This document shows, in pieces, positions 4,563 through 63,500 of a stretch of 64,000 nt of DNA (position 1 is the first letter of the stretch; each line of letters starts with the position of its first letter). The notes below the pieces were generated by a model, which worked only from the letters and a program-made list of their open reading frames with translations, was not told the DNA's origin and searched no databases. A program made the position numbers and the translations under genes. This DNA is from Malassezia japonica (lineage: Eukaryota; Basidiomycota; Malasseziomycetes; Malasseziales; Malasseziaceae): assembly GCF_029542785.1 (NCBI RefSeq), contig NC_083371.1, positions 1,178,001 to 1,242,000 on the forward strand, in the 5' to 3' direction.

Positions 4563-5711
4563 ATGCGCGACGCTCAGTCGTTGCTGTTGGTGTTTGTTCA
4601 TGGGTAGGTAGCTCGTATTTACAAAAGTTTCAAGGGAAGTGCTGAATCTACGTTTGATCAATTCCCTGATCGTCTAAAGCACTTGCTGTTGCAGACATAT
4701 CCGAATACGGCAATCGAAGCACGTGTGTATCCAACGTATGAGACGCGCGGCTCGCTGGCGCGTGCTGTCGACGGACTCATAGAGTGGCTGACGGCGGAGG
4801 TGACCGAGTATGAGTCCAAGAATGGTGCGACAGCTGTCGTGCTCTGCGGCCATTCTATGGGTGGCATTGTTTCGCTAGACACTGCCCTCGAACTGCATCG
4901 GTCTACGCCACGGAACAAGACACCTTGGCCGGATGTGTGCGGCGTGCTTGCCTATGACACACCCTATCTCGGAGGTATGTAACTGATCTGATACAGTGCA
5001 CCCCCATGTTTTCAAGCACCAGTTTTCTACGTTGCATGGCTACGCCGACTCGGCCTTGAAATTGGGGGCGGTCCTTGCGCCGGTGGCCGGAGGCCTTGTG
5101 GCGCAGTTTGCATCGCAAACAAAACGCGGAAGCGAGCCAAGCACGTCGCGTGTTTCACGCGCGACGTGGCTTGGCGTTGGGACTGCGGCGGTCGCCGCAA
5201 TCGGTACCGCGGCCGCCACCACGGTGATGAGCAACGTGGGATCGGAAAATGATCCTTACCGGTGGATCACGGAACATCTCATGTTTGTGCGCGCGCTGTG
5301 GGATACAGAGGCGAACAAAAGGCGCCTCGAGGCGTGCGCCACCTTCAAGATCCCTTTCCACTGCTTCTATACACGGATCGTGCCTCCCCCTCAAGCACTG
5401 GGGACAAATCCCACCACGATGCTGGACCCCACGACACGTACCTTTATTTTGGTGCCGGACGAAAAGGAGGCGTACGCACCGTACTTTTCACCTCTCGATT
5501 CCGTATGTGCTATGGCTGACTTAGAGCGCCGCCGACGAAATCGTGGCACATACGACCATGTTCCGGGGACGAACCAGCCAATCGTACTTTAGCATGGGAC
5601 TCGGTACGTCTCTCTGCTGACCTAGACTCGGCGCATCTCGTGACAGAGTGGTTTGGACAGCCCAAACTCCTCGGCAGTGCTGCGCGGCCGATTTCGCTGG
5701 ATTTGGACTAG
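4563..5711 (+). CDS. DUF676-like alpha/beta hydrolase (putative lipase)
   Basis: Putative serine hydrolase of 352 residues, rebuilt from five exons: 4563-4603, 4628-4974, 4997-5502, 5525-5603 and 5626-5711. Introns are 24, 22, 22 and 22 nt, and the spliced length is an exact multiple of three. Near the N-terminus LLLVFVHGFKG is the usual oxyanion-hole strand. GHSMGG (about residue 97) is the nucleophile elbow; LAYDTPYLG follows. A hydrophobic Ala-rich segment near residue 190 (WLGVGTAAVAAIGTAAA) could be a membrane span. The substrate is unknown; DUF676 enzymes include lipases. The last exon gives LVTEWFGQPKLLG and ends in TAG at 5709-5711, overlapping by four bases the stop of the convergent TBCE gene. 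Confidence 0.8.
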
Positions 5712-7178
5712 CGTACCACTACAATCACATCGTTCTCTTGTACTCCATAGTCATCCAACGTGCCTGCATCATCGTCCAGCGGAACGACCACCGCTTCCGT
5801 TTCGGCGCGCAGCACTGCGTACAGCTCGCCCGTGGGGGGTATATGTGCAGCCGTGCAGATTCGGCGACGTGCAAGACGCAAAGGCATGGTGCGCAGGAGT
5901 GATGCGTGCACCGGTGCCGCATCGAGCCACTGCGCGCCTTCGTCGGAAGTGGGGACGTGATCTGAGCATACAACACCGATTTCGACGAGCTTGACACGCA
6001 GTGTCGGCGGTGCTTGGGCTTGGGCGGGTGCGCCGTGCACTTTGCACAGCGCCTGATAACGCAGCGTGGCTTGATCTTGTGGTGTTTGTGCGAGATAGTA
6101 CCGCTCGGCATCGACACGCTCCTGCGTCGAAATCGGGGTATGTTCCAACGTGCCCAACGTGCCCAATCGCCCAATCGCCATCCAGCGCAACGTACGCTCA
6201 TCCGGTGCGATCATCGCATGGCCCAGCTGCAAGGACCATGGTGCGACGAGAAGTGCTTCGAGTGCCTCGAGAGATGCCCAGTCGCGGATAGGATTGCCCT
6301 GCAAGCTGATGGAGTGCAGCGCCGGAAATCGAGTATCGGACGGCGGAATATGTGCGATGGCATTGTCCAAGAGGACGAGGTGTGCGAGCCGCGGCAGGGT
6401 ATGTAGGGATTTCACGATCTCGACAAAATCGCCGAGCGCGTTTCCTTGTAGATTCAGAGTCTCTAGCGCCTGAAACGTGCCTGTGGGCGTCTCGCCGAGT
6501 GTCGACAGGCCATTATGCGCCAAACGCAGCGACGCGAGCTGCGGCATGTGCCTGCCCAGCTTTACGATCTGGTGAGCCGTGCAACGTACCTCGTTCCAGG
6601 ACACCCCCGTGGCGTCCATCTGCAAGTCACGCAGCGTCGCGAGCGAAAAAGGACGCGTCGGCGGCGCGAAGCGCGTATAGTGCAGCACCAGCGTTTCGAG
6701 TGCGAGCTCGTCGGTGATGCGTGTGAGCTCATCCCAGGACGAGATCAGAGAGCGCGACAAGTCAAGCGATGTGACGTGTGCGCACTCTTCGCGAACCCTT
6801 TCCGGGTCGCTTGCCTCGGCCACGTATACTGCCGAAGGATCGGCGAGGGCGGGCGGAGGCGGCGCGCCCGTGAGACTCACGACGCTATGAACCCGCCCCT
6901 CATACTTTTCGTGCAATGCATCGAGGAACGGCACGCCCCACTCGATGCGCGCCGATTCGCGCAGGAACGCGCTGCTGTTGGGTGGCCTGGGTGAGCTGGC
7001 GCACGTACGCGTCAAAGTAGCGTGTCCCGTCCGGCGCCACGCCGTCGTGCTTCCCCCGCCCCGGCTGGTCCCACTGGACTCCAATCCATACGCCGGTCTG
7101 CGACGCAAGCGGTCCTATGTACCGCACTGTTCCATACTCGCCCTTGTACACCAAACGGCCGCCAGGCGGCTTTCCCAT
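5708..7178 (-). CDS. TBCE: Tubulin-folding cofactor E
   Basis: Cofactor that helps assemble the alpha/beta-tubulin dimer. Two exons (7178-7009 and 6986-5708), joined over a 22-nt intron, give 482 residues. The order is as in the family: an N-terminal CAP-Gly domain (GRLVYKGEYGTVRYIGP ... GVWIGVQWD ... RGKHDG), a leucine-rich-repeat middle (SLRLAHNGLSTL, LNLQGNALGDF, LVLLDNAIAHI), and a C-terminal ubiquitin-like domain ending DYGVQENDVIVVVR. The N-terminal segment MGKPPGG is short, so the ATG at 7178 was preferred. The stop of the upstream same-strand gene is only 11 bp away. Its own stop overlaps that of the convergent hydrolase gene. Confidence 0.9.
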
Positions 7179-13361: not shown

Positions 13362-16300
13362 CTAGTTCGACTTGAGCGTGCGCTGCTTCTCGGCGGCGGC
13401 GACAATGCGGCGATTGGTAAAGAGACCCTTGCGCTTGCGCACCGTGTCCATGTAGCGCTTGGCGACGTTTTCGCGGTCGCCCTTTTCGCCGAGGTCTTCG
13501 AGCTCCTCTTCCGTAGTCGGCACCCAGAAGGGGTCCAGATCGTAGAGCTGGAAGCCGGCAAACAGCAGCTGCGGACTCGCGGCGCCCGACGTGCGCTTGC
13601 GGATTTCTGTGTGAGATGGAGAACGTACCGTCTGAGAAGCCGAACGACTCGACGACGGGGAGGAGCGAGCCGATGGTGAAAAAGAGCGTGCCCTCGTTCA
13701 TCTCCTCCGACACAATCTTGCCGCGGCGGCGCGAAAGGACCGCGTGCACCTTGCCTTGTACCTCGGCTGGGTAAGTAGGGATACGTACGTGCTGCTTGGA
13801 TATCACACGAATACATAGCAAGCATGAGGCGCGGCGACCAGTCCAGCAGACCCGCACGACACGCCTCGCGCATGCTCGAAATCACCGCCGAGGTGACCTG
13901 CGACGAACGCACTTTCACGCTTTCGCTCTCCTCGATTCCGACGTGCTCCACAAAGAAGGCCATGCCTTGCATCGGCTCCGCACACAGGGGGCCGCTGCCG
14001 GTCGCGAGCTGGAACCCATTCTCCACCGCATCGCACATCTCACGCGGCAGCGCATCGTCCAGCGACGCCTGCGCCAGCTGCTGCGACACGTCGTCCTCGG
14101 CAAAGCGGCTCTTGAGCGAGCGGCGCAGCACGCTGCCGCCTTGGTCGATCAGCAGATTCGCGCCAGTGTTGCGGGGGCCAAATGCGCAGATGTGCTCCGC
14201 CACACCGCTCCAGGTGGGGCCGGCACGCTCGAGGAGCTTGGTAAGCTCGCTCCAAAAGAGGCGCACAGGCACGCGCTTCGCACGCTCCGCATTCTCGCCG
14301 TGGCGCGCGCCGACGTGCTCGTCGCCTTCGTCGCCGCCGCCGTCGTCATCGTGGCGGCGGCCGCCGCGGCGCAGGCGGCGGATCGTCGGCTGGTTCACCG
14401 CGAGGAACTCAGCAATGTTGTGGGGGAGCGGCATCGCACGCACCGTGTACGTCAGCGCACCGTTCAATGCAGAGCCACTGATTGTGCCGCGCGCCGCGCC
14501 AGGCGTCTTGGGAGGCGCCATGGCGCTGCCCTTTACCGCCGTCTCGCGGAAAGGAACCAGCGGGGGGGACTGCTGGATCTTGCAGCGCGCAAACCGGTCG
14601 CGGAGATCCTTCATGCAGCGCTCCAGGTGGAGTTCGCCGGCGGTGAGGATGACATGCTCGCCATTCTCTTCGACCATCACCTCGACGCACGGATCGGCCT
14701 GGTTCAGCAGACGCAGACCCTCGACCAGCTTGGGCATCTCGGCGGGATTTTTGGGCTCGAGCGCGACTCGCACGATCGGCGTCGCGGTGCGCCGCACGCC
14801 GGCCAGATTCACTACCTCGCTCGGGGGCGTGTCGTCGGCCGCGTTCGGCACGCGAATCAGCGTGCCGTTGCGCAGCACCGTGCCGTCCAGGCCACGGACC
14901 GCAAAGAGGTTTCCGGCCGGCACACGTTGCACGGCCAGCAGGTCGCGGCCCATCATCATGTACAGCGCTGCGATCTTGACCTGCTTCAGGTGGGGCACGT
15001 TCGAAGGGTGCGTTGGCGGCAGGTGCACGTCGTACTTGGGCAGCACGGCCCACACCGTGTCGCCCGCCTGCAGGCAGCCGCTGTACAAGCGCGCAAAAGC
15101 CAGCACGACTTCCGACGGCGGCGCCTTTTCGGGCTCTGCGGCCGGCTCCTTTTCCGCTTCGCTCTGCGCGAGCGCCGCGCCGGTCGCGTTCAGCGTCGAC
15201 TCGACCTCTGCGGCGCGCTCGCGCAGCTCGCGGCCGCGCTCGCGCATCTCGTCCGCGGTGAGCTGGACGCGCTTGTTCTCCGGCAGGTCTTCTGAGCTCA
15301 CGGCAAACATCTTACTAATGTACGCCACGACCGTTGCTTCCGGGCTCGATCGCGCCGAGAAGAGGTCGCGCTCGAGGTCAGTGTGCGGTGCGAGTTCCTC
15401 GTCCGTGGCAAAGTAGCCGAGATCGCTGCGGATCATACGGGGCACGCGCAGGCGCTGTGCGTCGCCCGGCGCCGGGAGGTTGTGCACGATCGCCGAAAAG
15501 GTCGTCGCCGACAGCGGCAGCCACTGGCTCATGATGGCAAGCATCAGCGCCGACGCGTCCTTAGCCTTCAGGTCGCGCGGGTGTACGGTAAGCCCCAGTG
15601 CCGAGATGATCTTTTCGACCTTGTCCATGTTGCGTGCTTCGACCGTGTTTTCGTACACGCTCCATACATTATCCAAGACAAACTGCACAAACATGGGCTT
15701 CAAGTTGCGGTTTTCCTTGTCGTGCTGCTTCTGCGTCAGGACGCGCTTCGTCTTGGGGTCCAGGTAGTAGTTACCCCACAGAAACTGGCGGATGTTCTTT
15801 TCCTTGATGCCGAGCTTTTGCGCGTAGAGGTGCGAGAACTTTTCCAGACGAAAGGCCCAGTGGTCCATGGCGCTCGCAAAGATCACATTTCCCTTGGACG
15901 GGTCAAAGTACAGGTCCTCGTCCCCTCCCTCTTCGTAGTCCGGCAGGTCTCCCGCCTCTTCTTCGCCCTTGGCGCGCTTTTCCTCGAGGATGCGCTCGCG
16001 CTCATCGTGCCAGCGCTGGTCCTGCTCCATCTTTTCGGCCGCAAAGAATCCACCGAGCACCGCGTTCGCCTGCTCGACGAGCTGGAGGAGGCGGTGGTGT
16101 GCCTCTTCAGGCGTGAGTTTCAGCTCGGTGATCAGGCGGTCCATTTTGTTCACCACGAGGATCGTGCGCAGGCCATCGAGCCATGCCTGGCGCAGCACAG
16201 CGACGGTCTGCGAGCAGACGCCCTCGATCACATCGACAATGACCAGCGCGCCGTCGCACAGGCGGGCGGCCGTCGAGACCTCGCTCGAAAAGTCGACGTG

Positions 16301-16656: not shown

Positions 16657-17751
16657 ATGGCGGACAAACGCAAGGTGCCGCCGATGGCGGGCGCGGCCGG
16701 CGACGCGACGTCGGTCGTGAAGCGCGTGCGGCAAGGCGAAGGCGCATTGACGCAGACGCAGCGGCGCACTAGTGCGCTCTCGAGTGCCGTGATTTCGCTC
16801 CAAGGCGCGCACACTGCCGAAGTGCTCGACGTCAAGTTTTCGCCGTGCGGCGAAAAGATCGCGGCCGCGTCCGCGGATCATAGTGTCTCGCTGTGGGAGA
16901 CGTACAAAGGGAACCGCAACCTGGGCCTGCTCACGAGCCACTCGCGCGCCGTGACATGCGTCGCGTGGGCCCCGACGGCCGAGGGGGACGTCGTCGTGTC
17001 GGGCTCGGCGGACAATACGGTCATTGCATGGAATGCCAAGACGGGACAAAAGCTGCGCCGCTTCCGGGGGCACAAGGGAATTGTGAACGGCGTCGCATGC
17101 ACGCGCACTGGGCGCCCGCTCATTGCGTCGGCTTCCGACGACGGCCGCGTGCTCGTGTGGGACCTGGACGAGCGGCACTTTGTCGACGCGCTGGATTTCG
17201 GATACCCCGTCACCGCCGTGGCGTTCTCGGAAGATGCGACGCAGCTCTTTGTCGGCGGCGTCGACAATGCGATCCACGCGATGGACCTCACGACCAAGCA
17301 GCGGCAGTACTCGCTGCGGGGGCACCTCGACTCGATCGCCTCGCTCGCTCTCTCGCGCTCGGGCACGCACCTCTTGTCCTCGGCGCTGGACGACGCGGTA
17401 CGCATCTGGGATGTGCGCCCGTTTGCGCCGGAAGCACGGCCGGGCGACACTGGCAGCCCACGGCTCTACCGCACGCTCACGGGGCAGCCGAGCGGCTTCG
17501 AAAACATCCTGATCAAGGCGGCCTGGAGCATGGACGGCGAGCGCGTCGCGAGCGGCGGCGCGGACCGCACATGCACCATCTGGGACGTGGAAAAGGGCGC
17601 TATCCTGTACAAGCTGCCGGGGCACCGCGGGACGTGCACCGCAGTCGATATGCACCCGCTCGAGCCGATCGGTACGTATACCACTACTCACCCAGTCGTC
17701 TCCGCCTCCACCGACCGCACATTGCTCCTGGGTGAAATCGAGCCGGAATAG
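16657..17751 (+). CDS. SNRNP40: U5 snRNP 40-kDa WD40 protein
   Basis: Spliceosome component that binds Prp8 in the U5 snRNP. It has 356 residues with a short N-terminal extension and seven WD repeats. Signatures include LQGAHTAEVLDVKFSPCGEKIAAASAD, VVSGSADNTVIAWN, ASASDDGRVLVWDLD and the family-typical end EPIVVSASTDRTLLLGEI. That last block appears only after removing a 24-nt intron at 17672-17695. The intron length is a multiple of three and has no stop, so unspliced RNA would add eight residues. The ATG sits in CCACCATGG, a strong start context. VPS17 begins 25 bp downstream on the same strand, the first link in a head-to-tail trio with ALE1. Confidence 0.93.
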   Translation: MADKRKVPPMAGAAGDATSVVKRVRQGEGALTQTQRRTSALSSAVISLQGAHTAEVLDVKFSPCGEKIAAASADHSVSLWETYKGNRNLGLLTSHSRAVTCVAWAPTAEGDVVVSGSADNTVIAWNAKTGQKLRRFRGHKGIVNGVACTRTGRPLIASASDDGRVLVWDLDERHFVDALDFGYPVTAVAFSEDATQLFVGGVDNAIHAMDLTTKQRQYSLRGHLDSIASLALSRSGTHLLSSALDDAVRIWDVRPFAPEARPGDTGSPRLYRTLTGQPSGFENILIKAAWSMDGERVASGGADRTCTIWDVEKGAILYKLPGHRGTCTAVDMHPLEPIGTYTTTHPVVSASTDRTLLLGEIEPE

Positions 17752-28995: not shown

Positions 28996-29440
28996 TTACT
29001 CGTTGAAGCGGAGTACAAAGTTGACGACGATCGCCGTCAGGAGGAGGACCGAGAGCACCGTAGGGCCTGCTGTCAGCCATGAGCCACATACCGAGACGGT
29101 CATCGTAAGGGCCGCTGCCGCGGTTGCGGATCGCGTTCGCACGCCAGTGGTAGGTGACGAGGGCGTAGAGCATGATAGCGATGGCTGCGTAAGATCCCAC
29201 ACCTATACATACCGACGAAGCTGAACAGCGCAGCGCTGACACGGCCGACGCGGTCACCGAAGTTGAGCAGACCCGCGGCGAGCGCCGAGAGGGTCACGGT
29301 GAAGCTGAGCCACGAGAGGACTGGGTAAGCCAGGGGGACGTACAGGTACGCTCGTTAGCGAAGAAAACCTTGGGCTCAACACGAACGGGAAGCGCAATAC
29401 GCTTGCCCGCCGTACGCTGCAGAAGAGGCTGCGTCGACAT
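28996..29440 (-). CDS. VTC1: Vacuolar transporter chaperone subunit 1 (DUF202)
   Basis: Membrane subunit of the VTC polyphosphate polymerase. Exons 29440-29344, 29320-29213, 29184-29092 and 29069-28996, with introns of 23, 28 and 22 nt, give 123 residues. The product matches Vtc1 closely: [27 protein letters not shown], then ANERTFLSWLSF made by the first junction, [28 protein letters not shown], and [11 protein letters not shown] before the third membrane span. Three hydrophobic segments are visible. The second intron (28 nt) is longer than the local norm. Two CACGTG elements lie upstream at 29513-29518 and 29537-29542. It converges on PPIL3 with 192 bp between stops. Confidence 0.95.
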
Positions 29441-47350: not shown

Positions 47351-47953
47351 CTAGTCCGCAGCCGGTGCCGGGGTAGACTCTTCGCTTTCGTCAATCCAAC
47401 TTTGCTCCACAGTGAGCTTCACACGACGGACATATTCCTTCATGTTTTCGCGGTATAGAGAGGCGGCCTCTGCATTGGCGGGGCTGGGTCAGCATTCTTC
47501 AACATACCTGTTTGGGTTGGGATCGTGTAGCAGGCTTTGGATACTGGTCAGGATCGCCGCGACATCATAGGTCGGGCTCCAGCGGTTTTGGAGAATGTCC
47601 AAGCAGAGCTCGCCATTCGCGTAGACATTCGGGTGGAACATTTTGCTGAGAAATTTCACAGTGGGGGGCTTGTTGGGATAGGACTCGTCAAACGTGAGGA
47701 GCAGCTTGAACGTGCCGTCCTCAAACGGCGTATCCGCTGCAGTTAGTCCTGTGGGCGTGCACCGGGATACGTACCCGGACCAAAAATCACGGCATTCCAT
47801 ACAAGCAGGTTATCGGCACATGGCGCGCCAGAAATGCCGCCGGGGGGGTCGGAGGAAAGGCGCTTAAAATCGCGAATCAGCCTCCTTTTGGACGGTGTCG
47901 ACTGCGTCCGTGTTAGCCATCGTTCGTTGTAGCACAGCGTGTCAACGAACCAT
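47351..47953 (-). CDS. RAD6: Ubiquitin-conjugating enzyme E2 Rad6/Ubc2
   Basis: E2 that ubiquitinates PCNA and histone H2B. Exons 47901-47775, 47736-47508 and 47483-47351 encode [22 protein letters not shown], then [24 protein letters not shown], the active-site block [27 protein letters not shown] and [21 protein letters not shown]. Introns are 38 nt (47737-47774) and 24 nt (47484-47507). The coding frame begins exactly at a CAG|TCGACACCG junction, so the Met must come from another exon. The only candidate I find is ATG at 47951-47953 directly followed by GTTCGT, a 49-nt intron (47902-47950). That makes exon 1 the start codon alone. With it the product is 163 residues, including a short acidic/Pro tail. 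The first exon is inferred. Confidence 0.88.
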
Positions 47954-49734: not shown

Positions 49735-50762
49735 CTACGAGAGTTTATACAGCGCCTGCGCCGTGATGCTGTGCAGCTTGCTGGTCGCTTCGACGAGCGC
49801 ATTGGAGACCTGGATAAGAAATAGCAACTTACCTCTTGCACCTTTCCAAAGTCGTGCGCAGGGCCTTGCAGGGAATAGCACGTCGTGCGGCCCAGAGCAG
49901 GCATCGTGCACACAATAAGATGGGCACTCGCATGCGCCGCCTCTTCCTGCGACGGATCCACGAGCCATTGCTGCTGGACCTCGCCTTTGAACGGCAGAGA
50001 AGGGATAGCAGACTGCGTCAGTCATACCACGTACCGCCGTAGCACCTGCGACCAGGCCGTACATCTCAATGCCGGCCTCGGCCAGGGCAGCGCTCGCGGC
50101 CGTCACGGCAAGCGCAACGCACCCTGCGGTCGACGTGTCCATGTCGAGGACCGTTATGTACACATCGATAGAGGCCTTTGGGAGTAAATCCAGGCGAATC
50201 GCAGGAAGTAGCGCCTGTTCGACGAGCGCCGCAGAGCTGTGCGACTCGACGTCCTTGCCCGGCTTGAAGCGCTGCACGTCGCAAAACGGCGCCATATTAA
50301 AGTTGACGTTCAGTTCGGCCTGGCCGGCATACTGCCGTCCACGCACTTGGCGGGGTCCATGTCTGGGTTAGAACATACACGTACACAGCGCAGGCCAGCT
50401 TGGTCCGCCCCGATTCGAGCAGCGCGCTGCCGCTGGCGTTGGGCACAAGGCCAATTTGCACGACTGCGTCAGCTTTACCACATACACATCGGCCGGGGAT
50501 CCAAGATGCCGCGGTTTTCGGTGCGCTTGGAAAATTCGCGACGCGCAATACGCGGCACCGGGAGCTTGTCGTCACCAAGGACCATGGTCGTCAACTCCAG
50601 CTGGTCCGCCGACGACGACTCGGGGTCGACGAGCAAGCGCTGCTCATCGAGCGCCCACACAGGCGCATCTGTCGTGCTTCCCTCGCGCGTCTCTACATTG
50701 TACAGAGGAAGGAATGTGTCTTCCGGGCCGTTCACACGCCGCCGGTCGAATTGCGCCGTCAT
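49735..50762 (-). CDS. MTR3: Exosome RNase PH-like subunit Mtr3
   Basis: Ring subunit of the RNA exosome. Five exons (50762-50486, 50463-50385, 50362-50035, 50012-49833, 49809-49735) with introns of 22, 22, 22 and 23 nt give 312 residues. The RNase PH fold shows as [40 protein letters not shown] (two junctions inside), NVNFNMAPF, LVEQALLPAIRLDLLPKASIDVYITVLD, and AGIEMYGLVAGATAS. A long N-terminal extension with LPLYNVETREG and acidic segments precedes it. Mtr3 is preferred over Rrp41 or Rrp46 because of the [9 protein letters not shown]/VHGPR block and size, but the six paralogues are easily confused. A second in-frame ATG at 50807 would add 15 residues. Confidence 0.82.
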
Positions 50763-50843: not shown

Positions 50844-51939
50844 TTAGGCAAAGAGTGTGAGACCCACGAGCGCCGCCGCGGCAAGGTACGCCAGCATGGG
50901 CAGCGCAAGCGACGCGGCCGAGGAGGCCGAGTCGGTCTGGTACACGTACAGGTTCTGGACCTGCCAGTAGGCATCGTCGAAGCTCGAGCCAGCGTTGCCC
51001 ACTTGGTTGCTGCACGCCTGGTACTTGGACGGGCACTGTGTCTGGTTGTACGCACCGTCAGCCCAGTCACCGCAGAGCGTGATATCAAATACAATCTTGT
51101 GGTCGTCAAACTGGCTCGCACCGTCCGCACCGCCCGTGCACGAGAGCTTGCCAAAGTTGGCGGCCGGCGTGCCCCAGCTGTCGGGGTTCACCGTCTTGCC
51201 CGGCTTCGAGATATCGCTTGGCATGTTTTGCGTGCGGTCCCAGTACCACATACGGATACCCTTGCCATTCTGGCTGAAATCGCGGTGCATTGCAACGACA
51301 CCGCCGCCCTTGGAGTTCACCTTAGAACCCCACGTAGCCGACTTGGTGCCGTTCATCGCAATACGGCAGCCGCTTTGCTCATTCGCCTGGTAGTTGCAGT
51401 TGGGGAAGACGGTCGTACCCGACTGATCGCCATTAGCCACCGAGCACTGGTCCTTGACGTGGAGCGAGGCCAGGTTGTACGCGTACTGGTCGTTGACGTT
51501 CTCCATAATATCGATTTCACCACCCGTAGGCCACTTTGACACATCCGACGTCACCGTCCAGAACGCAGGCCAGACGGCACAGCCAGTCGGAATGTGGGAC
51601 ATTTGGAGACTGCGTTAGCATTGACACGTACATGATCACCGAATCGCCGTAGTTTGCCTTGGACTGGAGGCGCACACTCGGACGGCCCTCGGCGCGCGTC
51701 TTGGTCGTGTCGACGCGGATGACGAAATCTTCGCCATGCGCGTAGGTCAGGTTCAGCTGCTGGGCCTGCTGCTGGTTTTGGTAGACCACAAGGCCGTTAG
51801 TAGGGTCCTTGTCCGTGAAGTAATCAAACTTGTCCATGTACGAGTTTCCATTGATGGTGTCCTTCAGGTTCCAGGTCACTGCATTCACCGTGGCGACCGC
51901 CCCTACGGCCACCACCGCCAAGCTCGTCCAAACCTTCAT
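50844..51939 (-). CDS. GPI-type GH16 endo-beta-1,3(4)-glucanase
   Basis: Secreted glucanase of the concanavalin-A-like GH16 family, 357 residues, in exons 51939-51632 and 51609-50844 with a 22-nt intron. A signal peptide (MKVWTSLAVVAVGAVATVNA) opens it. The catalytic motif is complete: GEIDIMENVN (ExDxxE), preceded by IPTGCAVWPAFWTV and followed by VVAMHRDFSQNGKGIRMWYWDR. The C-terminus is a Ser/Ala-rich spacer and hydrophobic tail (LALPMLAYLAAAALVGLTLFA), a likely GPI-attachment signal. It probably trims or remodels cell-wall glucan at the surface. The start was set at MKVW since the frame above begins with TTG. It diverges from RAD54 with 117 bp between ATGs. Confidence 0.93.
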
Positions 51940-52056: not shown

Positions 52057-54586
52057 ATGCGTCGAAGCGCGATCGCGTCGGTGCTGCGCGACCGGTCGAA
52101 TGACCAGAAAGACGATTCTTCGCGGCGGCAGCTGGCTAGTGGTGGCGGGTTTGGGCCACTGCTAGGACAGAAGCCTTTTAAACCCCCAGGCGTCGCGCGT
52201 CGCGAGGGTGCGATGAACTCGCTCCGGAAGCGCGCTCGCGTCAACTACGCCGGGCTAGCTGGCGAGGGCGAGGCAAACGATGGCGAGGCGACGATAGAAG
52301 CACCACGCAAAAAGAGCTCGCTCGAGGGCGTGTACAAAGGCATCGATGCGTCGGGCGTGTCGCTCAATGCCGACCGCCGGAAATGGGCTGTTTACCAGCC
52401 CAAGCCCGACGCGCTGGGCCGGCGCTTTTTGATCCCTACTATGCAAAACGAAAAAGGCGATATCATTGATGCGCGTATGACATATGCTGCGCTGGGCGTG
52501 CGCCGTGCCGTCGAGGTTCCTCCTCGCCCACTGCACGATCCTATGGGCGAGCACTCGATTGTTCTGTTTGACCCCACAATTGACGACAGGGACTTTGAGC
52601 GCGAGAAAGAGAAGTTGCATCAGGAACAGGCGGAGCACGAGGCCAAGGTTATAGCTTCTGGGCCGCACAAGAGTCTGGCGGCGATGCTTGGTCTCGACAA
52701 GCCCAAAGTGCAGATCCAAGAAAAGGTGCCGGTCGTGATTGATCCCCGCCTGGGCAAGATTTTGCGTCCCCACCAAGTGGAAGGTGTCAAGTTTTTGTAC
52801 AAATGCACCACGGGTATGATCCAGGAGAACGCGCACGGCTGCATCATGGCCGACGAAATGGGTCTGGGCAAAACGCTGCAGTGCATTGCGCTGATGTGGA
52901 CGCTCTTGCGACAGTCGCCCATTGCGGGCAAAAGCACCATCCAAAAGTGCATTATCGTGTGCCCTTCGAGTCTAGTGCGCAACTGGGCGAACGAGCTAGG
53001 TACGTGGATTTGCTTACCCAGTAAAATGGCTTGGAACATCGGCGCCTGGCGCGCTTGCGCTCGACGGCAAGCTCAGCCGCGAGCAGATGTTTGAGACGGT
53101 GCAGCGCTGGTGCGAGTGCACTGGCCGTGCGATTACGCACCCCGTCATGATCGTTTCGTACGAGACGCTGCGTAATCTGCAAGAGCTCCTGGGCAACACG
53201 GAAGTCGGCCTTTTGCTGTGTGACGAAGGCCATCGTCTCAAGAACGCAGACTCGCTCACGTTTCAGACGCTCGATATGATTAAGGTCAAGCGCCGCGTGA
53301 TCCTGTCGGGTACGCCGATCCAGAACGATCTGTCCGAGTACTTTTCACTGATCAACTTTGCCATTCCCGACGTGCTTGGCAGCCGCACCGAGTTCCGCAA
53401 GCAGTTTGAGCTGGATATTCTGCGTGGCCGCGACGCGGAGGCTACCGAGAAGCAGCAGCAGGTCGGCCGCGAAAAGCTGCAGCAGCTGTCGGGACTTGTT
53501 AGCCAGTTCATTATCCGGCGCACGAACGATATCCTGTCCAAGTACCTCCCAGTGAAGCACGAGCATGTGGTCTTTTGTAATCTTTCGCCTTTCCAGCTCT
53601 CGCTGTATGACCTCTTTGTCAAGTCGCCGTCGATCAAAAAGCTCCTGCGCGGTGTCGGCTCGCAGCCGCTCAAGGCGATTGGCATCCTCAAGAAGTTGTG
53701 CAACCACCCAGACCTGCTCAATCTTCCGGAAGACCTCGACGGGAGCGAGGACCTCTTCCCGGAAGGCTACAAGCCGCGCGACCGCCGCCACGTTCCGGTG
53801 GAGCTTTCGGGAAAGATGGCCGTTCTCGAGCGCTTCCTCACGTCGATTCGCACGACGACGGACGACAAGATTGTACTCATCAGCAACTATACCCAAACGC
53901 TCGATATCTTTGAGCGCCTGTGCCGCTCGAAGCGCTGGGGCTGCTTCCGCCTTGACGGCACGATGAACATAAACAAGCGCCAGCGCCTTGTCGACCGCTT
54001 CAACGACCCCGAGTCGCCCGAGTTTGTGTTCCTTCTCAGCTCCAAGGCCGGCGGCTGCGGCTTGAACTTGATCGGTGCAAACCGACTTGTGCTCTTTGAC
54101 CCGGACTGGAACCCTGCGTCCGACCAGCAAGCGCTCGCGCGTGTGTGGCGTGACGGGCAGAAGAAGTCGTGTACGTCGCTCTACTAACCCAGGCTTTGTC
54201 TATCGCTTTATTGCCACCGGCTCGATCGAGGAAAAGATACTGCAGCGGCAGTCGCACAAGCAGTCGCTCTCGTCGTGTGTCGTCGACGACGCATTGGACG
54301 CAGAGCGCCACTTTTCCGGCGAGGATCTCCGTGCGCTCTTCCAGTTCAAGGATAATACGATCTGCGATACGCACGACACCTACAAGTGCAAGCGGTGCCG
54401 CGACGGAAAGCAGATGGCGCCTTCGTCGGCAATGCTCTACGGTGACACGAGCACGTACGTACTCAATCTAACACCAGGTGGAACCACTACGCGCACAGCC
54501 ATCTCGGCGAGCTACACGACGATCTACTACGTGCAGAGATCATGCACAGCGACGTTTCGTACGTCTTTCAATACTGTAGCCATTAG
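52057..54586 (+). CDS. RAD54: Recombinational repair translocase Rad54
   Basis: Swi2/Snf2 ATPase that works with Rad51 in homologous recombination. Four exons (52057-52999, 53022-54170, 54193-54454, 54478-54586) with introns of 22, 22 and 23 nt give 820 residues. RPLHDPMGEHSIVLFDPTIDD is the Rad54 N-terminal mark. Motif I reads ADEMGLGKTLQ, motif II LLCDEGHRLKN, motif III LSGTPIQNDLSEYF, and motifs V-VI AGGCGLNLIGANRLVLFDPDWNPASDQQALARVWRDGQKK. The end includes FIATGSIEEKILQRQSHKQSLSSCVVD, CKRCRDG and a final HLGELHDDLLR. The ATG chosen (MRRSAIASVLRDRSN) is the first in frame. TFB2 begins 67 bp downstream on the same strand. Confidence 0.96.
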
Positions 54587-54653: not shown

Positions 54654-56113
54654 ATGAGTGCCGCGGAGCTGCCGATTGAGGCGTTTCTCAAGACCCAGCC
54701 GCGGTCTGTGCTGAATAGGCTGTATGAGAAGCCGGCAAGCTGCTTGGCAGTGTTTCGGTACGCGCCCTGACTGACGCAGTTTGCTCCCCATGGTGGCCAG
54801 GCAGATTATTATGAACATGCTTTTTCTCGATGGCCCCCTGTCGATTGAGGACTCGCTCAAGTTCTTTAAGCATGATACCTCGAAAGAGCACGATGCTCCG
54901 CTGCGCCGCATGGAAGGGCTGTCCATCGTCAAGATTCGTGACGAAAAGCTGCACATGAACGACATCTTCCGTAAAGGCATTGTCGGCGCGCTCAACGGAA
55001 GGTACGTATCCTCGCTCACGCAGTGGCGACTTTCACTCGTTCGGCACTCCCTGCACCAAGAACCAGAGCGAAAAGGTCAGCGTCGAGTTCCTCGACCAAT
55101 ACGCGCGAACGCAGTGGGAGACGATCCTCTACTTTATGGTCGGCAGCGAGCAGTCGGCGACGCCGCGCAACACAGTGCTCTTTCTCTTGCAGCGCGCAGG
55201 CCTCATGCAGCGCGATGTGGCCAACTCCAAGCACCTCAACATTACTTCGGCTGGCTTCCAGTTTCTACTGCAGGATGTCAATTCCCAGCTGTGGGCGCTG
55301 TTGTTGCAGTACCTGCGCATGGCTGAGGAGAGGAATATGGACCTTGTCGAAGTGCTTGCCTTTTTCTTCACAGTCGGCGGTCTGGAGCTTGGTCGCGCGT
55401 ACGAAACGCGTGGCCTCTCGTTGACGCAGATGCAGACGCTCGAAGAGCTGAGCGACTATGGGCTGGTGTACCGTACGAGCAAAAACGCGGGCTTTTATTT
55501 CCCGACGCGACTTGCAGCAACCTTGACGTCCACCGCGTCCTCCCTGCTCTCCACGCTCGACGAGCAAGAAGAGCAGGGCTACCTGATCCTCGAGACAAAC
55601 TACCGTGTCTATGCCTATACCTGTACGTGTCCCTTCTCACCCAGCGAATCTCTTGCGCATTGCCATTCTCAACCTGTTTGTCACGCTCAAGAGTCGTCTG
55701 CCTAACCTTGTCGTCGGCCAGCTTACGCGCGAGAGCGTCAAGTCAGCGTTGAACAAGGGAATCACGGCGAATCAGGTCATTACCTACTTGACTCACCATG
55801 CCCACCCCCAAATGTACAAAAATGTACGTTGCACGTCTCACACAGGACCCCCTGCTCCCTGCCACCGTCTCAGACCAGGTCCGGCTATGGGAGCGCGAAA
55901 AGAACCGTGTTGCGACGTGTGTCGGTATGTGTTTCTGCTTACTCAGGCAACCTGTACACCGAGTTCACCTCCATCCACGACTATGAGCAGGTGCGCGACT
56001 ATGCCCAAAGTCTGGGTGTGTTGCAATGGGAGAGTGAGACGAAGCGGATGTTATTTGTCACTGCGGAAGGACACGAAAGTGTACGCGAATTTATCCAGCG
56101 ACGCCGTGTGTAA
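54654..56113 (+). CDS. TFB2: TFIIH core subunit p52 (Tfb2)
   Basis: Subunit of TFIIH that anchors XPB/Ssl2 in transcription and nucleotide excision repair. Six exons (54654-54757, 54780-55001, 55024-55622, 55645-55823, 55846-55924, 55947-56113) with five introns, every one exactly 22 nt, give 449 residues. Conserved parts are [129 protein letters not shown] and HPQMYKN-DPLLPATVSDQVRLWEREKNRV. The last aligns with the p52 C-terminal domain that binds p8/Tfb5. It follows RAD54 by 67 bp and converges on the GT31 gene. Confidence 0.96.
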
Positions 56114-56209: not shown

Positions 56210-58188
56210 TTACACGCGCCCCGACACAATCCTCGCGTAGCTGCGAGAGTAGGGCTGCACGATCGGGCTTCCGTTCATGCGCCATTCGCTGCCCGCGCCT
56301 CCGCTACCGCGGCGCCACGTACGCTCGCGCCCAAGAAGGGCGAGAGCAGTCTCGTAGAACCACTCGTTTTTCTTGCAGTAGTGCACCATGACAGTGCTTC
56401 CTACCTTGTAGTCTTGGTAGCGCCTGTTCATCAGGTCTTGTGTAAACTGTCCATAGGTTTCGCCATAAGGATTGGCAGTCGGTGCATAGGTGGGATGGTC
56501 AGCCGCTTTGGCAGTCAAGCTGCTGTTGGCGTATAGCGTCAGGCCATACTCGCCCACCATATTGACGGACTTGGCGGGTATCAGCTCCGCACTCGAGGTG
56601 CCGTACAGGCGGGGGTCGTTCGCGCCAAACACCACGACATCGTGCGGGAAGTACTTTTGCGAGTCTTCGTCGCTGCTCTGCCGGTACCACGTGTCGCGCC
56701 AACGCCCACCGCCCTCGACAAGCGCCTCAATGGTCTCTTCTGTGGAGAGGTCAGGGCGGGGCGGCTTGTACGGAACTTTCCACTTGCTCGTGGTCGAAAA
56801 GGAGCGCGCGTTGTAGGCTCCTCCACGACGCTGGATCTCGTCGGCACTGAGACCCTGCCGCTTCTCGCGGCGGATCTCTTCCACGTGATCCGGGAATAGG
56901 AAACCATGTGCGTATGGGGTACCCACACGTGGGTGGTCATAGATCCAACAGTGTTCCGAGATCCACTGGATCTCGGAGCTCCGAGGATGAATGGTCATGT
57001 ATTTGGCCATCTTGGTATCTTCTTTGCCGTGCCAAATGCTGGCAACTTCTTTCGATTGGGCCAAATACTGCACGAGATCGTGCGAGAGGGCGTATGCCTC
57101 GCCGGCCATAAACCAGCCGCGGACGAGATCTGGGTAAGTAAATAGTACGTACAGCCCCAATACACCATTTTCCTTGGGAGTGCTCTCAAGCGACGCTCCA
57201 ATTCATCCAGCACCAAAAAGGTATCGTCGTCGGCTTTCAGCACATAGTCTGCGAGTTTCCAATGCACGTCGTACTGGTCATCGAGCGCGGGCGCACCGAC
57301 CAATCCATGCTGGTCACGGGGCACTAATACAGGAACGGTGGCGTTCTCTGCGGCCCAGCGGAAGAAGCTCAGCGTCTTGTAGCTGCTTCCCGTTTCCTCC
57401 GCATCCAGGATGACCAGGTCGTTGTACATCTCCATCTCCAACGCGACGCTTTCAGCGTACTTCTTGAGCGGGCGGCCCAGGATAAACTTGACCTGAACAT
57501 TCCCCAAAGGGCGGCCCGTCTGCTCGTCGTGAGGCAGCGTCATTGTCGCGTACGTATTGCGGATTACGTTGCGGCGCTCAAACGCTTTGTCGTAGCTCAT
57601 GATACCGACAAACACGTCGACTGGGGCAAGGTGGTCGACGTCCGCATTCACAAACGGTGGTTGGAGCGCGCAGTCATCACGCCAGGGCATGCGCTCCTTG
57701 TCGGGGTCGAGGATGTACTTGACCGTGAACCCAATCGCGGTCCCGACCACAGCGAGGCCCATGAGCCCAAGAAGGCCCATGAGAGGGTGTTGTCTTAGTA
57801 GTAGCAAAAGTTTGCGAGTCCAAAGACTCAACAAACGCCCGACACTCATATGCTTCACCCGGTCTGCCCCATCGACGCGTGCATCGACGCGTCGTTTGGA
57901 CATCGCTCGGAAAGTCCGGGACTCGAAGGAAAGGTCGTGCGGTTGTTCGCAGTCAATGGAATAAGGAGTATCTGATGCGGTTGACACGGGAGCCTTCCAG
58001 CACTCTTCAAGGTCTGTTCCATCCTCGCTCAGGCCGATAAGAGGCTGGATTTGTTCCATATCGCGACCACGACTCGATTGGGCTGCACCGGGTGCTCCCA
58101 TGCTCATTTTTCGCGCCTCCTTGCCTCTCAACCTTTCTTTCGGTAGAGAGGTTGAGCTCGGCGTAGCCGACATGGAGGCTGTTATCAT
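56210..58188 (-). CDS. GT31-family glycosyltransferase (beta-1,3-galactosyltransferase-like)
   Basis: Type II Golgi membrane protein of 651 residues from exons 58188-57153 and 57129-56210 with a 23-nt intron. A long cytosolic tail (about 1-135, Ser-rich with basic RKLLLLLRQ) precedes the anchor MGLLGLMGLAVVGTAIGFTV. The luminal domain has the Galactosyl_T blocks DVFVGIMSYDKAFERRNVIRNTYA, YNDLVILDAEETGSSYKTLSFFRWA and the metal-binding DxD in VLKADDDTFLVLDEL. The splice junction assembles YWGCYLVRGWFMAGEAYALSHDLV, typical of the family. The acceptor is unknown; fungal GT31 members can add galactose or N-acetylglucosamine to glycans or glycolipids. The far C-terminus (about 490-651) is not recognisable. 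Confidence 0.82.
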
Positions 58189-59193: not shown

Positions 59194-59221
59194 ATATCCT
59201 CTATAAATATGTATGCCTCAA

Positions 59222-60547: not shown

Positions 60548-63500
60548 ATGACAGCCGATGCGAGTAGCCCTACTGGCGCACAGCGTGCGTCCGGGATGGC
60601 CTCCACGGTATGGCGGAAGCTCAAGGCGATCGACCTTAACCCCGAGACGGCCTTCAAGCCAAAGCGCCCCCCTCCCGCCACACGCGATGTGATGGTGAAC
60701 TTGGACTTACCACCCGAAGCCTTTGATGCGAAGGGACGCGTGAAGAAGAGCTGGGTGTACGTTACCAACCAGATCAAGTCGTCCAAATACACAATTTACA
60801 ACTTCGTGTTTAAAAACCTGCTGGAGCAGTTCCGACGTGTAGCCAATGTGTTCTTCTTGGGTATGTGGTGTGGCTCACACAGTCCTTGTCATTCTCCAGT
60901 TCTTCCCCGAGTTTACTACGATCAGTCCGGGTGTGGCTATGCTTCCTTTGCTCATTGTCTTGGCTATCACCATGATCAAGGACGGTTACGAGGACATTAA
61001 GCGTCACCAGTCCGACCGTGCGGTCAACCGGCAAAAGACATACGTGCTTCACGGTAGCGGATGGAAGAACCATAACCGCACCGAGGCCAAGTCACGCAGC
61101 ATCCGCGTGCTTCTGACGGTCGTGCGGCAGTACTTTTCGCCACGGAGCTGGGGCATCGGGAAAAAGCCCGCTGCCGCACGAGCACCCGAGGACCCTCATG
61201 TGGTGCACCGTGGCGCGCCCGACGCGCCCCGTGTCACGTCGCCGACGCCCATGTCGCCCATTGAGGAGAACGAGCCAGCAGAGTTTGCGACACCGATGCC
61301 CATGCCGCAGTCGCCGCATGCCGACACCGGGCCGTGGGAGCGCCATCCTGCACATGCCCGCCCCAGCCTCAATAGTGAGCGCAGCTTCTCCGAGCCGAGC
61401 AAGAAGCGCCACAGCTCCATGAGTGAGCGCTCGTTGCACCACTCTGGCAAAGGACTCCGCTGGCGCAACAAGCACTGGGAGGACCTGCACGTCGGCGACA
61501 TTGTCCGGCTCAATAACAACGACGAAGTTCCGGCTGATATTGTCATTTGCTCGACCAGCGAGGGCGACGGCAGCTGCTACGTCGAGACGCGCAATCTCGA
61601 CGGTGAGATCAATCTCAAGTCGCGCTATGCCGTCCCGGAGCTTACCGAGATGAACACACCCGAGGCCTGCGCCACGGTCCCGTTCCAGATCGAAGTGGAG
61701 CCGCAAAACACGGATATGTACCGCTTCAACGCGCGTGCGATTCTCCACGACGAGCTGAACGACGAGGGCGAGTACCTGCAGTGCCCCATCACCCTCAACC
61801 AGGTGCTCCTGCGTGGCTGTACAGTGCGCAACACCGACTGGGTGATTGGCGTGGTGACCATGACCGGTCTCGACTCCAAGATTGTGCTCAACTCGGGCGA
61901 TACGCCGAGCAAGCGCAGCCGCATGGAGTTCACCATGAACCGGATGGTATATGTGAACCTTGCCATCATTGCGGTTATTGCTGTCGTGTGCGCCATTGCT
62001 GATGCGCGCCTCGAGCAGTACTTTTTCCAGCGCACCGCGTACTGGCAGTATGGCGCGGTGCACGGCGACGATAATCCGAATATCAACGGTCTTATCGCCT
62101 TTGCCAACTCGCTCATTACCTTCCAGAACTTTGTCCCGATCTCACTGTACATCTCGTTCGAGGTCGTGCGCACTATTCAGGCTTTGTTTATTTTTGAGGA
62201 CCACGACATGTTCTACGAGAAGGCGTCGCGCCGCACGACGGCCAAGTCCTGGAATCTGAGTGACGAACTCGGCCAGATCCAGTACATTCTCAGTGACAAG
62301 ACGGGTGCCTTGACGCAGAACCTGATGATTTTCCGCGAATGCTCCATCGCCGGCACCGTCTACCACGGTGATGAGCCGCAGGATAAGGAGAAGGCGAGCA
62401 CCCAGGAAGAGGAGCCGCCGGCCAACAACCGCATGCGTGTGCGCCCATCGCTCGAGGATGTGCCGCCTTACAAGGATGCGCGGCTCACCGGGCTCCTCAA
62501 CAGCCCCTCAGAGAAGCAGTTTGGCGCGGCCGACGACTTCTTCCACTGTTTGTCGCTCTGTCACACGGTGCACATTGCCAAGACGGACGAGCGCAACGTG
62601 ATCATGTACAAGGCCGAGTCGCCCGACGAACAGGCGCTAGTGCAGACGGCTGCCGACAATGGCTACGTCTACTGCGGCCGCCACGTGAACACGGTCGAGC
62701 TCCAAGTACCGACCAAGGACAAGCGCGAGCGCTACGAGGTCCTGCATACGATCGAGTTCTCGTCCGCACGCAAGCGCATGAGCGTCATCTTGCGCCGCTA
62801 CTCGGACAATGAGATCATCATGTATTCCAAGGGTGCTGATGCCATGATCTACTCGCGCATGGGCCCAGGCCAGGAGGACATGCAGAAGGCCACCGACGGC
62901 AACCTCGAGGAGTTTGCCAGCAAGGGTCTGCGTACGCTCTGCCTTGCGCAGCGCACACTGGATGTCAACGTCTATAAGACCTGGGCGCACAAGTACCAAG
63001 AAGCCTCGGTGTCGACCACCGACCGTGAGGAGCGCATGGAGGAGCTCGCCAGCGAGCTCGAGCAGGACCTGCAGCTGATTGGTGCGACGGCCATCGAGGA
63101 TCGTCTGCAGGACGGCGTCCCCGAAACGATTGCAGACTTGAAGCGCGCCGGTATCAACATCTGGGTCGCGACCGGTGACAAGCTCGAGACGGCCGTGGCG
63201 ATCGGATACAGTACCATGCTTCTGTCGCAAGACATGAACCTGGTCATTATCCGCGGCGGTGCGTACGGCACGACCGGCTCTGCGTACGAGCAGCTGGAGC
63301 GCGCGATTGAGCGCTTCTTTGGTGGTCGTGAGGCGCTTACTGACGTCAAGCACGAGCCGCCGCCTGCGCCCGATACGCAAGGCGTGTCGCGCACGTCGCA
63401 CGGTAGCCAGTTGTCGCTCGTGGGCGAGCACAATGGCGAGCGTCCCGGTGGCTACGCGCTGGTGATTGACGGTCACGCGCTCGGCTATGCGCTCGACGAG

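Follow-up and report, generated by a model that had tools for sequence, protein, structure and literature searches.

Predicted introns of exactly 22 nucleotides form a dominant class in Malassezia japonica and sit on two geometric floors

The 64,000-nt stretch of Malassezia japonica DNA analyzed here (the window) encodes TFB2, VPS37, MTR3, a GDPD-domain protein, a UBC-like protein and a putative RTP1. It also contains three genes linked to the spliceosome, as the earlier note on this DNA had recognized: an SNRNP40-like gene with WD40 repeats, PPIL3 (Pro_isomerase) and a TGS1-like gene (Methyltransf_15). The genes are interrupted by very short predicted introns (Table 1). The final gene models, built with a length prior favoring 22–25 nt, contain 54 introns in the window, with 38 at 22 nt, 5 at 23 nt and 5 at 24 nt (48 at 22–25 nt). 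The earlier note had reconstructed 57, with 38 at 22 nt and 50 at 22–25 nt; its number of 22-mers is reproduced exactly and the other two figures are slightly reduced. The four genes that it described as having 22-nt introns only (PPIL3, TFB2, RTP1 and VPS37) have introns of no other length in the gene models either, with four, five, three and three, respectively. Longer introns coexist with the short class, for example in the gene at 474–1053, which has one of 38 nt and one of 65 nt.

Table 1. Predicted introns of the window, with their positions and the basis of each assignment
Feature	Length (nt)	Position	Strand	Basis
TFB2 intron 1	22	54758..54779	+	Gene model; junction within conserved FRLLPM block
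TFB2 intron 2	22	55002..55023	+	Gene model; alignment
TFB2 intron 3	22	55623..55644	+	Alignment; relative P0015: nine residues replace split codon
TFB2 intron 4	22	55824..55845	+	Alignment; relative P0024 reads into VR (GTNCGN)
TFB2 intron 5	22	55925..55946	+	Gene model; alignment
PPIL3 intron 1	22	28251..28272	+	Cyclophilin domain across junction; unspliced stops
PPIL3 intron 2	22	28390..28411	+	Cyclophilin domain across junction; unspliced stops
PPIL3 intron 3	22	28496..28517	+	Cyclophilin domain across junction; unspliced stops
PPIL3 intron 4	22	28578..28599	+	Cyclophilin domain across junction; unspliced stops
VPS37 intron	22	29672..29693	-	Final model; Mod_r domain across junction
VPS37 intron	22	29823..29844	-	Final model; Mod_r domain across junction
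VPS37 intron	22	29973..29994	-	Final model; Mod_r domain across junction
Putative RTP1 (name from the earlier note) intron	22	26426..26447	-	Final model
Putative RTP1 intron	22	27061..27082	-	Final model
Putative RTP1 intron	22	27986..28007	-	Final model
MTR3 intron 1	22	50464..50485	-	Final model; two sister-species models exit exon here
MTR3 intron 2	22	50363..50384	-	Final model; sister-species comparison
MTR3 intron 3	22	50013..50034	-	Three sister-species models restart at acceptor; naive ORF runs into intron
MTR3 intron 4	23	49810..49832	-	Final model
GDPD-gene intron, outside matched domain	22	22376..22397	-	Final model
GDPD-gene intron	22	22950..22971	-	Within GDPD domain (residues 16-248)
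GDPD-gene intron	22	23190..23211	-	Within GDPD domain
GDPD-gene intron	23	23291..23313	-	Within GDPD domain
GDPD-gene intron, just ahead of matched domain	24	23327..23350	-	Final model
Intron	22	4975..4996	+	Final model
Intron	22	5503..5524	+	Final model
Intron	22	5604..5625	+	Final model
Intron	22	6987..7008	-	Final model; flat-prior run picked 34-nt version
Intron	22	13607..13628	-	Final model; flat-prior run
Intron	22	13767..13788	-	Final model; flat-prior run
Intron at 3' end of WD40 (SNRNP40-like) gene	24	17672..17695	+	Final model
Intron	22	17921..17942	+	Final model
Intron	22	18732..18753	+	Final model
Intron	22	19977..19998	+	Final model; flat-prior run
Intron	22	20200..20221	+	Final model; flat-prior run
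Intron	22	24129..24150	-	Final model
Intron	Probably 25	29067..29091	-	Flat-prior run; final model had 29070-29091 (22 nt); 25-nt form preferred because it fits the branch rule
Intron	28	29185..29212	-	Final model; flat-prior run
Intron	23	29321..29343	-	Final model; flat-prior run
Intron	24	36242..36265	-	Final model
Intron	22	46802..46823	-	Final model
UBC-like gene intron	24	47484..47507	-	Final model
Intron	22	51610..51631	-	Final model
Intron	22	53000..53021	+	Final model
Intron	22	54171..54192	+	Final model
Intron	23	54455..54477	+	Final model; flat-prior run
Intron	23	57130..57152	-	Final model; flat-prior run
Intron	22	60861..60882	+	Final model
Doubtful intron, ends AAAAG	24	4604..4627	+	Final model
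Longer-class intron, TGCTAAC branch, 7 nt after branch A	38	572..609	-	Final model
Longer-class intron, TACTAAC branch, 11 nt after branch A	65	823..887	-	Final model

The pattern GT[AG]NGT...YTNAYNYAG matched the window 36 times at 22 nt, three times each at 23 and 24 nt and once at 25 nt, against a chance expectation of about 0.1 per length (20 Markov resamples); 35 of the 36 matches at 22 nt lie inside final gene models. Across the 8.43-Mb, nine-contig genome, a strict 22-base pattern has 1,784 copies and its reversed control none, which confirms the dominant 22-nt class of the earlier note and extends it genome-wide. By extrapolation, the genome seems to hold about 3,000 introns that are exactly 22 nt long. 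When the gene finder was run with no branch term and with a length prior that was flat over 15–300 nt, it predicted 155 introns in 264 kb: 53 at 22 nt, 17 at 23 nt, 3 at 24 nt, 9 at 25 nt, one at 15 nt and none at 16–21 nt. Lengths of 22–25 nt account for 82 of these 155 and lengths of 22–31 nt for 91, many of the longer ones being probably false; among the final-model introns 156/196 span 22–31 nt, lengths that the prior favors. A run that was set aside, having chained genes together, placed 51 of its 331 introns at 22 nt and 11 at 16–21 nt. Twenty-two bases seems to be about the shortest length that the splicing machinery tolerates.

Reading frames and protein continuity suggest that the 22-mers are excised in vivo. 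When 105 22-nt sites selected by motif only were subjected to a frame test, 45 were too weakly coding to judge; 57 of the 60 testable sites fitted excision, none fitted retention and three fitted neither. With the branch motif omitted (GTNNGT..YAG), the corresponding counts were 49, 13 and 2 at 22 nt and 11, 5 and 2 at 23 nt, with at most one excision each at 16, 17, 19 and 20 nt. Removal also restores a conserved frame in TFB2, PPIL3 and MTR3. Spliced TFB2, with its five 22-mers removed, matches TFB2 of M. pachydermatis at 79% over 100% and aligns over its full length with other Malassezia; when seven sequences, Ustilago among them, are aligned, all five junctions lie within blocks free of gaps. 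The TFB2 and MTR3 records of relatives suggest introns at corresponding positions, and one relative's TFB2 intron is readable as 24 nt. In PPIL3, a single cyclophilin domain bridges four junctions where the unspliced frame runs into stops, and the Mod_r domain of VPS37 (residues 41–180) bridges three.

GT and AG ends are given by construction in the final models, whose 93 22-mers have A17 in 91 cases and T15 in 90; both bases occur in 53/53 flat-prior 22-mers, although that model had no branch term. We infer that A17 is the branch nucleotide. The statement that the branch adenine is always base 17 holds closely within the class, and in longer introns the adenine lies farther along. A joint scan of adenine position (d5) and bases following it (d3) in 264 kb of one genome placed 104 sites in the cell with A at 17 and five bases after it, where about 0.1 was expected. 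Rows 15 and 16 were empty, and with A at 17 only one site had 3 nt after the adenine and one had 4 nt. Below the floor at base 17, at d5 10–14, 16 sites were spread over 60 cells against about 7 expected, which is near, but not exactly, background. The counts fall in a tail toward longer d5 and d3. The geometry is one of two one-sided limits rather than one favored length: the branch adenine is very rarely found upstream of base 17 and is very rarely followed by fewer than five bases, and the most frequent intron has both minimal values.

Between the splice site and the branch motif, the seven bases described as free in the earlier note prove to be biased. Base 9 is a pyrimidine in 82–87% of 22-mers (85/104, and 72/83 in an independent set) and G in 3–5%; base 8 is rarely A and is G in 49–57%; base 13 leans to purine, though in the second set only about 60% of sites have one. 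The preference for a purine four positions upstream of the branch adenine moves with the branch (79/104 in 22-mers, 55/78 in longer introns). The pyrimidine at +9 is weaker in longer introns (27/42 at d5 18–20 and 20/36 at d5 21–45, against 157/187); the set of longer introns includes chance matches. Base 16 is free (A28 T12 C23 G30 of 93). Only YNYAG follows the branch, so there is no space for a separate polypyrimidine tract, in agreement with the earlier note.

Those trans-acting components that were identified appear ordinary. The U2 gene keeps its GUAGUA contact sequence and the U6 gene keeps UACAGAGA. Genes for Slu7, SF1 and a METTL16-family protein are present, as is a U2AF65-like gene (E 3.9e-66, yet under the model's curated cut-off). 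Of the components that the earlier note singled out for comparison (U1, U2 and SF1/U2AF), U1 snRNA was not located in the genome despite repeated searching, which had no positive control. RED (RED_N) gave no match in a search that lacked a eukaryotic positive control.

At the level of sequence, the class, its counts, its effect on the frame, the floors, the branch motif and the intact U2 and U6 contacts are established. They are probably best explained as ordinary U2-type spliceosomal introns, shortened until two separate limits are reached, with the majority of the short introns at both limits and therefore 22 nt long; the GT...AG ends, the branch motif complementary to U2 and the GUAGUA of U2 are those of this type. 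The first limit, on the 5' side, may be set by two helices: the 5' splice site helix with U6 would cover approximately bases 1–9 and the branch helix with U2 approximately bases 12–18. About two bases would then be left between the helices on a 22-mer, and we propose that further shrinkage is impossible because they would collide. The second limit would be the minimal usable branch-to-AG distance (YNYAG) without a polypyrimidine tract. The pile-up at 22 nt would reflect deletion pressure in a compact genome, stopped by these limits; both this pressure and the helix footprints are inferred. Base 9, which is beyond the reach of U1 in U1–5' splice site pairing, would face a G in the U6 encoded by this genome if the helix with U6 continued that far. 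Against the footprints, the proposal predicts an equal +9 pyrimidine in longer introns, where it is weaker, and the G preferred at base 8 is no pairing partner for the A that it would face in U6. The low share of purine at base 13 in the second set also speaks against them.

In human B-complex geometry, about 50 nt are needed between the 5' splice site and the branch (PMC6692369), and the footprint model would therefore require a rearranged, hypothetical complex. We tentatively raise the possibility that a spliceosome with apparently normal parts accepts abutting U6 and U2 helices, some two bases apart, as its standard substrate, assembling through a compact or sequential intermediate. If so, the helix separation of ∼15 nm in the human B complex cannot exist on 22-mers, and the footprint of the catalytic core would be read directly from the two floors, 17 and 5. 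We know of no such intermediate described in fungi.

The floors need not be steric. Selection for efficient, self-defining introns might set the size, alone or alongside the shortening just described: the 93 22-mers carry 23.8 bits in their 22 bases, near the 24.0 given by log2 of both genome strands (2 × 8.43 Mb), and a retained 22-mer leads to a stop within 7 codons in 19/93 cases and within 100 in 79/93, so that mis-splicing would usually be punished. Since a soft fall-off would be expected where rows 15 and 16 are empty, we regard this explanation as unlikely. Distinctly unlikely, in our judgment, is a spliceosome rebuilt, with factors lost or altered, for the single 5' splice site–branch spacing that the earlier note suggested. 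The sharp mode at one length, the branch fixed at 17, the +4 position (C in 66/93 22-mers, A in only 2/93) and the failure to find RED and U1 would suit it. The scan, however, gives limits with tails toward longer d5 and d3, longer introns coexist, and the canonical U2 and U6 contacts and the factor genes listed above are present. The note's description of a spliceosomal-type, tract-less class with a fixed branch stands; the single-spacing machinery is not supported.

Recent insertion of an introner-like mobile element, always 22 nt long, would account for uniform length and shared ends, but is very improbable. Identical seven-base cores form 2 pairs against 1.2 in shuffles (n = 104), although cores that differ at one base or none show a slight excess (29 pairs versus 21.7, sd 4.3, in column shuffles). 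Neither similar copies nor a general target-site duplication is found: equal flanks occur at 9/104 sites for 2 bases (6.5 expected), 2/104 for 3 (1.6 expected) and none for 4 or 6, with 2/104 for 5 (0.1 expected), and introns seem to be present at corresponding positions in relatives, including the one readable as 24 nt. That the 22-mers stay in the mRNA and are bypassed by ribosomes, or are sequencing or assembly errors, is scarcely credible: GT–AG ends, a fixed U2-complementary branch and matching snRNA genes are needs of splicing rather than bypassing, and random errors cannot account for 1,784 copies that share one motif.

The shortening of ordinary introns to two limits has partial parallels elsewhere, as far as the available extracts of the cited reports go. 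Paramecium introns have a median of 24–25 nt (PMC12862383, PMC5014332) and likewise form a dominant class close to the minimum, in tens of thousands of copies. That ciliate has a spread of lengths (15–100 nt, median 24, in P. bursaria), whereas the GC-rich fungus has one exact length, a branch motif that is conserved and a constant distance from the branch to the AG. Mikrocytids have 224 introns of 16–17 nt and a strongly reduced spliceosome (PMC10245619, which also cites introns of 18–21 bp in another reduced genome and 15–16 bp in heterotrich ciliates). Their lengths are exceptionally narrow and their intron sequence conserved, as here, and a functional minimum with deletion bias is argued for the pile-up; the ∼3,000 (extrapolated) Malassezia introns differ in that the splicing factors found show no sign of reduction. 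The branch motif lies 2 nt from the AG in Yarrowia lipolytica and 4 nt in Trichomonas and Giardia (PMC2483917). The Malassezia 22-mers have the Yarrowia arrangement (CTNAC-NC-AG), also with no polypyrimidine tract. Those three organisms, however, are intron-poor with a stronger ACTAAC-type branch; the 22-mers have only CTNAC, their base 16 being free, and are also at a floor on the 5' side. Cryptococcus neoformans is, like Malassezia, a basidiomycete yeast rich in short introns, but they average 56 nt and the extract reports no dominant 22-nt class (PMC11913375). For Malassezia, a median of 30 nt in M. restricta (PMC9241646) and "very short introns" (PMC7426719) are in print; the portions of this literature available contain no statement of a 22-nt class, branch geometry or floors.

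If the 22-mers are excised, they provide some 3,000 (extrapolated) natural replicates of a minimal fungal intron beside normal-looking U2, U6 and several factors, a natural test of the minimum RNA that splicing requires. The smallest 5' splice site–branch and branch–3' splice site distances would become directly testable in this skin yeast. In MTR3, the one gene compared in detail, several sister species have public models that seem to put exactly these short introns in the wrong place, perhaps because annotation tools refuse introns so short; the annotation of other proteins of a common skin yeast may likewise be faulty, and some gene models of related yeasts are possibly wrong for the same reason.

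The earlier note had described a predominant class of 22-nt introns in the window. A search of the whole genome (8,433,779 bases in nine contigs; the window is positions 1,178,001–1,242,000 of contig C2) confirmed the class as genome-wide. The strict pattern GTACGTN7CTNACNCAG matched 922 times on the forward strand and 862 times on the reverse (1,784 in all), and the control, the same pattern read backwards, had no match in the whole genome. With a looser pattern, the window gave a sole peak at 22 nt (36 sites vs. ∼0.1 expected). The set for further analysis comprised 264 kb, namely the window and C1:1–200000. Codon preference on either side of each motif site was used to score the frame after excision against the frame after retention. 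The 22-nt motif sites with flanks numbered 105. At 60 of them, both flanks were coding; among these, 57 favored excision, none favored retention, and three fitted neither.

The frame test was also run with GTNNGT..YAG only, the branch motif being dropped. At 22 nt, 49 sites scored as excision, 13 as retention, and two as neither. The corresponding values were 11, 5, and 2 at 23 nt; 7, 13, and 1 at 25 nt; 1, 9, and 1 at 16 nt; 1, 8, and 0 at 17 nt; 0, 14, and 1 at 19 nt; and 1, 7, and 0 at 20 nt. Retention-type sites are what would be expected at any length from ordinary exon-internal GT..AG pairs. A gene finder in which all lengths of 15–300 nt were equally likely, with no branch term, returned 155 introns: 53 of 22 nt, 17 of 23 nt, three of 24 nt, and nine of 25 nt. 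Below 22 nt, it placed one 15-nt intron and none of 16–21 nt. T15 and A17 were present in all 53 of the 22-nt introns, neither being demanded by the model, which bears out the fixed branch position proposed earlier for this class. Two alternative penalty settings gave 58 introns of 22 nt among 199 and 54 among 138. A first run (50 genes; 331 introns, 51 of them 22 nt and 11 of 16–21 nt) was discarded because neighboring genes had been chained via false long introns, and the finder was rerun with other penalties.

The prior used in the final gene models favors 22–25 nt, so the flat-prior counts above are the safer guide to the shape of the length distribution. The final models hold 196 introns in the 264 kb, with at least one intron in 83 of 133 models. 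Ninety-three are 22 nt long, which extrapolates to ∼3,000 genome-wide. Retention of such an intron shifts the frame, and 79 of the 93 would meet a stop within 100 codons. One intron of 12 nt and one of 16 nt are presumably false, and the 15 of 156 introns of 22–31 nt from which the branch motif is absent may be false as well. Thirty-eight introns exceed 31 nt. Five of these (38–185 nt) have NCTAAC-, ACTAAT-, or ACTGAC-type branches with 7–13 bases after the branch A; most of the remainder are probably false.

In a joint scan of the 264 kb, each pairing of a 5′ splice site motif, a branch motif, and the first YAG was binned by the position of the branch A in the intron (d5) and the number of bases after it (d3). 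The mean expectation was 0.12 sites per cell. Cell (17,5) held 104 sites, (18,5) held 16, and (17,6) held 11, followed by a declining tail. Rows 15 and 16 of d5 were empty, rows 10–14 held 16 sites over 60 cells (vs. ∼7 expected), and cells (17,3) and (17,4) had one site each. The added length in longer introns falls on either side of the branch. The tail on both sides, together with the empty rows, indicates that the 22-nt intron sits where two one-sided limits meet. The earlier interpretation is thus only partly supported; the dominant class stands, but a spliceosome adapted to one 5′ splice site–branch spacing is not supported as proposed, and the two limits are the better reading.

Protein continuity was followed across individual junctions. 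TFB2 had been described as having 22-nt introns exclusively, and this holds for all five (junctions at residues 35, 109, 309, 369, and 395), each inside an ungapped block of a seven-sequence alignment that includes Ustilago, Thecaphora, and Basidiobolus. The 120 matches listed include two named Malassezia; spliced TFB2 shares 79% identity over its full length with M. pachydermatis TFB2 and 76% with that of Malassezia sp. CBS 17886. The single cyclophilin domain of PPIL3 (residues 3–155) crosses junctions 14, 53, 81, and 101, and the unspliced frame runs into stops. The VPS37 domain crosses all three junctions of its gene, and the GDPD domain crosses three of five. Some database proteins of relatives appear to bear traces of unspliced introns. 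At TFB2 junction 3, one of these (P0015, 75% identical) reads CEFPTLTLA where a split codon is expected; back-translation of this insert gives a retained 24-nt intron that starts with GT and contains CTNAC. Another (P0024, 76%) continues at junction 4 into VR (GTNCGN) and then out of frame.

The best named match of MTR3 is M. furfur MTR3 (74% identity). Judged from the protein sequences, the public sister-species models of this gene (P0121, P0125, P0128, and P0165) look mis-spliced at these junctions, and P0127 reproduces exactly the unspliced reading frame of the window across the MTR3 introns. Another protein, P0123 (56% identical), aligns through junctions 1–3 without gaps or inserts; at junction 4 it reads VRNQLAATLLTNQ. 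Back-translation of this stretch gives a 39-nt intron that carries YTNAC close to its end. If P0123 was called without introns, its species would lack MTR3 introns 1–3, and intron places and lengths would therefore vary within the genus. The M. furfur model is missing six residues directly before junction 3. Those of M. psittaci and M. brasiliensis use other donors and pick up again at the acceptor of junction 3, and those of M. yamatoensis and M. psittaci exit at the place of junction 1 and skip ∼60 residues. The M. brasiliensis record fuses MTR3 to an E2 enzyme resembling the UBC-like one of the window.

Features with coordinates (window positions, except the last two rows, which are positions in L045, both features lying near one of the U1-pattern sites)
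Feature	Position	Strand	Observation
Ribosomal-protein-like gene (presumed from its sequence)	474–1053	−	The two convincing longer introns of the window, 38 and 65 nt; stronger TGCTAAC/TACTAAC branches
Intronless ORF	7190–13078	−	1,963 codons including stop; run of QRPPM repeats; end presumably dehydrogenase-like
GC-rich stretch	8001–12000		GC 0.71
UBC-like model	47351–47800	−	Profile match starts at position 37 of 140; upstream exons probably missed
MTR3	49735–50762		
Gene model	58394–60361	−	Includes long introns of 191 and 253 nt, both dubious; model probably wrong
tRNA	1797–1879	−	13 extra bases
snR60-like snoRNA	788–894	+	

Minimal introns are of a known kind; in this fungus they form the main class, and their geometry can be read as two floors. 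In length they are comparable to introns of Paramecium, mikrocytids, and heterotrichs, and in their 3′ end to those of Yarrowia. In the excerpts consulted, Trichomonas vaginalis is credited with a single 23-nt intron, termed among the shortest known (PMC12316389), a Malassezia review mentions "very short introns" (PMC7426719), and a fungal intron survey names no such extreme (PMC8476143). Those on M. restricta give 2,150 introns with a mean of 37.2 nt and a median of 30 nt (PMC9241646), and in the annotation of its genome the minimum intron length was set to 20 and 15 (PMC6473144); those on M. japonica give a genome of 8.3 Mb (PMC4634964) and nine predicted chromosomes, in clade A with M. furfur (PMC7025860). 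Among the papers listed, our literature search found no account of a 22-nt class; most subscription journals lay outside its reach, and one may exist in print. The reading of the 22-nt elements as introners was rejected on comparison of core similarity and flank repeats, and ribosomal bypassing was also rejected.

The floor at 17 could reflect the footprint of two helices. Base 9 of the 22-nt introns is C or T at 85 of 104 sites and G at three, and 83 listed sites elsewhere on C1 replicate this (72 and four). U1 pairing is not known to reach +9. The U6 of this genome reads CGAUACAGAGA, and pairing extended from +5:C and +6:A would place base 9 opposite a U6 G. Base 13 is a purine at 79 of 104 sites and at ∼60% of the 83 second-set sites, as would be expected of pairing with U2, and in longer introns the purine bias follows the branch (55 of 78). 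Were both helices formed, only bases 10–11 would lie between them, and the floor at 17 would follow from this. The +9 pyrimidine is weaker in longer introns, and we therefore do not claim it as proof of the U6 extension; base 8 does not fit this extension, and both points count against the footprint idea. In human B complexes, the two helices are 15 nm apart, equivalent to ∼21 nt of RNA, so that ∼52 nt are required (PMC6692369). Introns of 22 nt cannot be held in the human arrangement.

Genes for U6, U2, Slu7, and SF1 were found, as were a METTL16-family methyltransferase gene (the family also matches bacterial proteins) and a U2AF65-like gene (E = 3.9e-66; 224 bits vs. a curated cut-off of 310, introns being ignored in the search). 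Slu7 is dispensable in yeast when the branch–3′ splice site distance is short; here it is kept despite such distances. There is no sign of a reduced spliceosome among the parts found. The 4-kb stretch with the U2AF65-like gene (L015) also encodes, on its minus strand, a protein that we take to be Prp40-like by its WW-like and FF-like stretches. Neither a search with the RED_N profile nor an Rfam search for U1 gave a match, and both were run without a positive control. ATACKTACCTG, tried as U1, occurs at six places, all ATACGTACCTG, the antisense of a CAGGTACGTAT donor, with no U1 match. A U1-loop pattern occurred at five places (vs. four in the control); one was rejected after an Rfam scan and fold, and one by eye. 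A search for the U1 5′ end together with an Sm-like site listed ten matches (vs. one in the control), and the one place examined had no Rfam match. At position +4, 66 of the 93 introns of 22 nt have C and two have A, despite the presence of the METTL16-family gene and of the normal U6 sequence UACAGAGA. In Saccharomycotina, a change of the +4 base from A to U accompanies loss of METTL16 and SNRNP27K (PMC11732430). Since METTL16 is seemingly present here, +4 A may have been lost by a different route.
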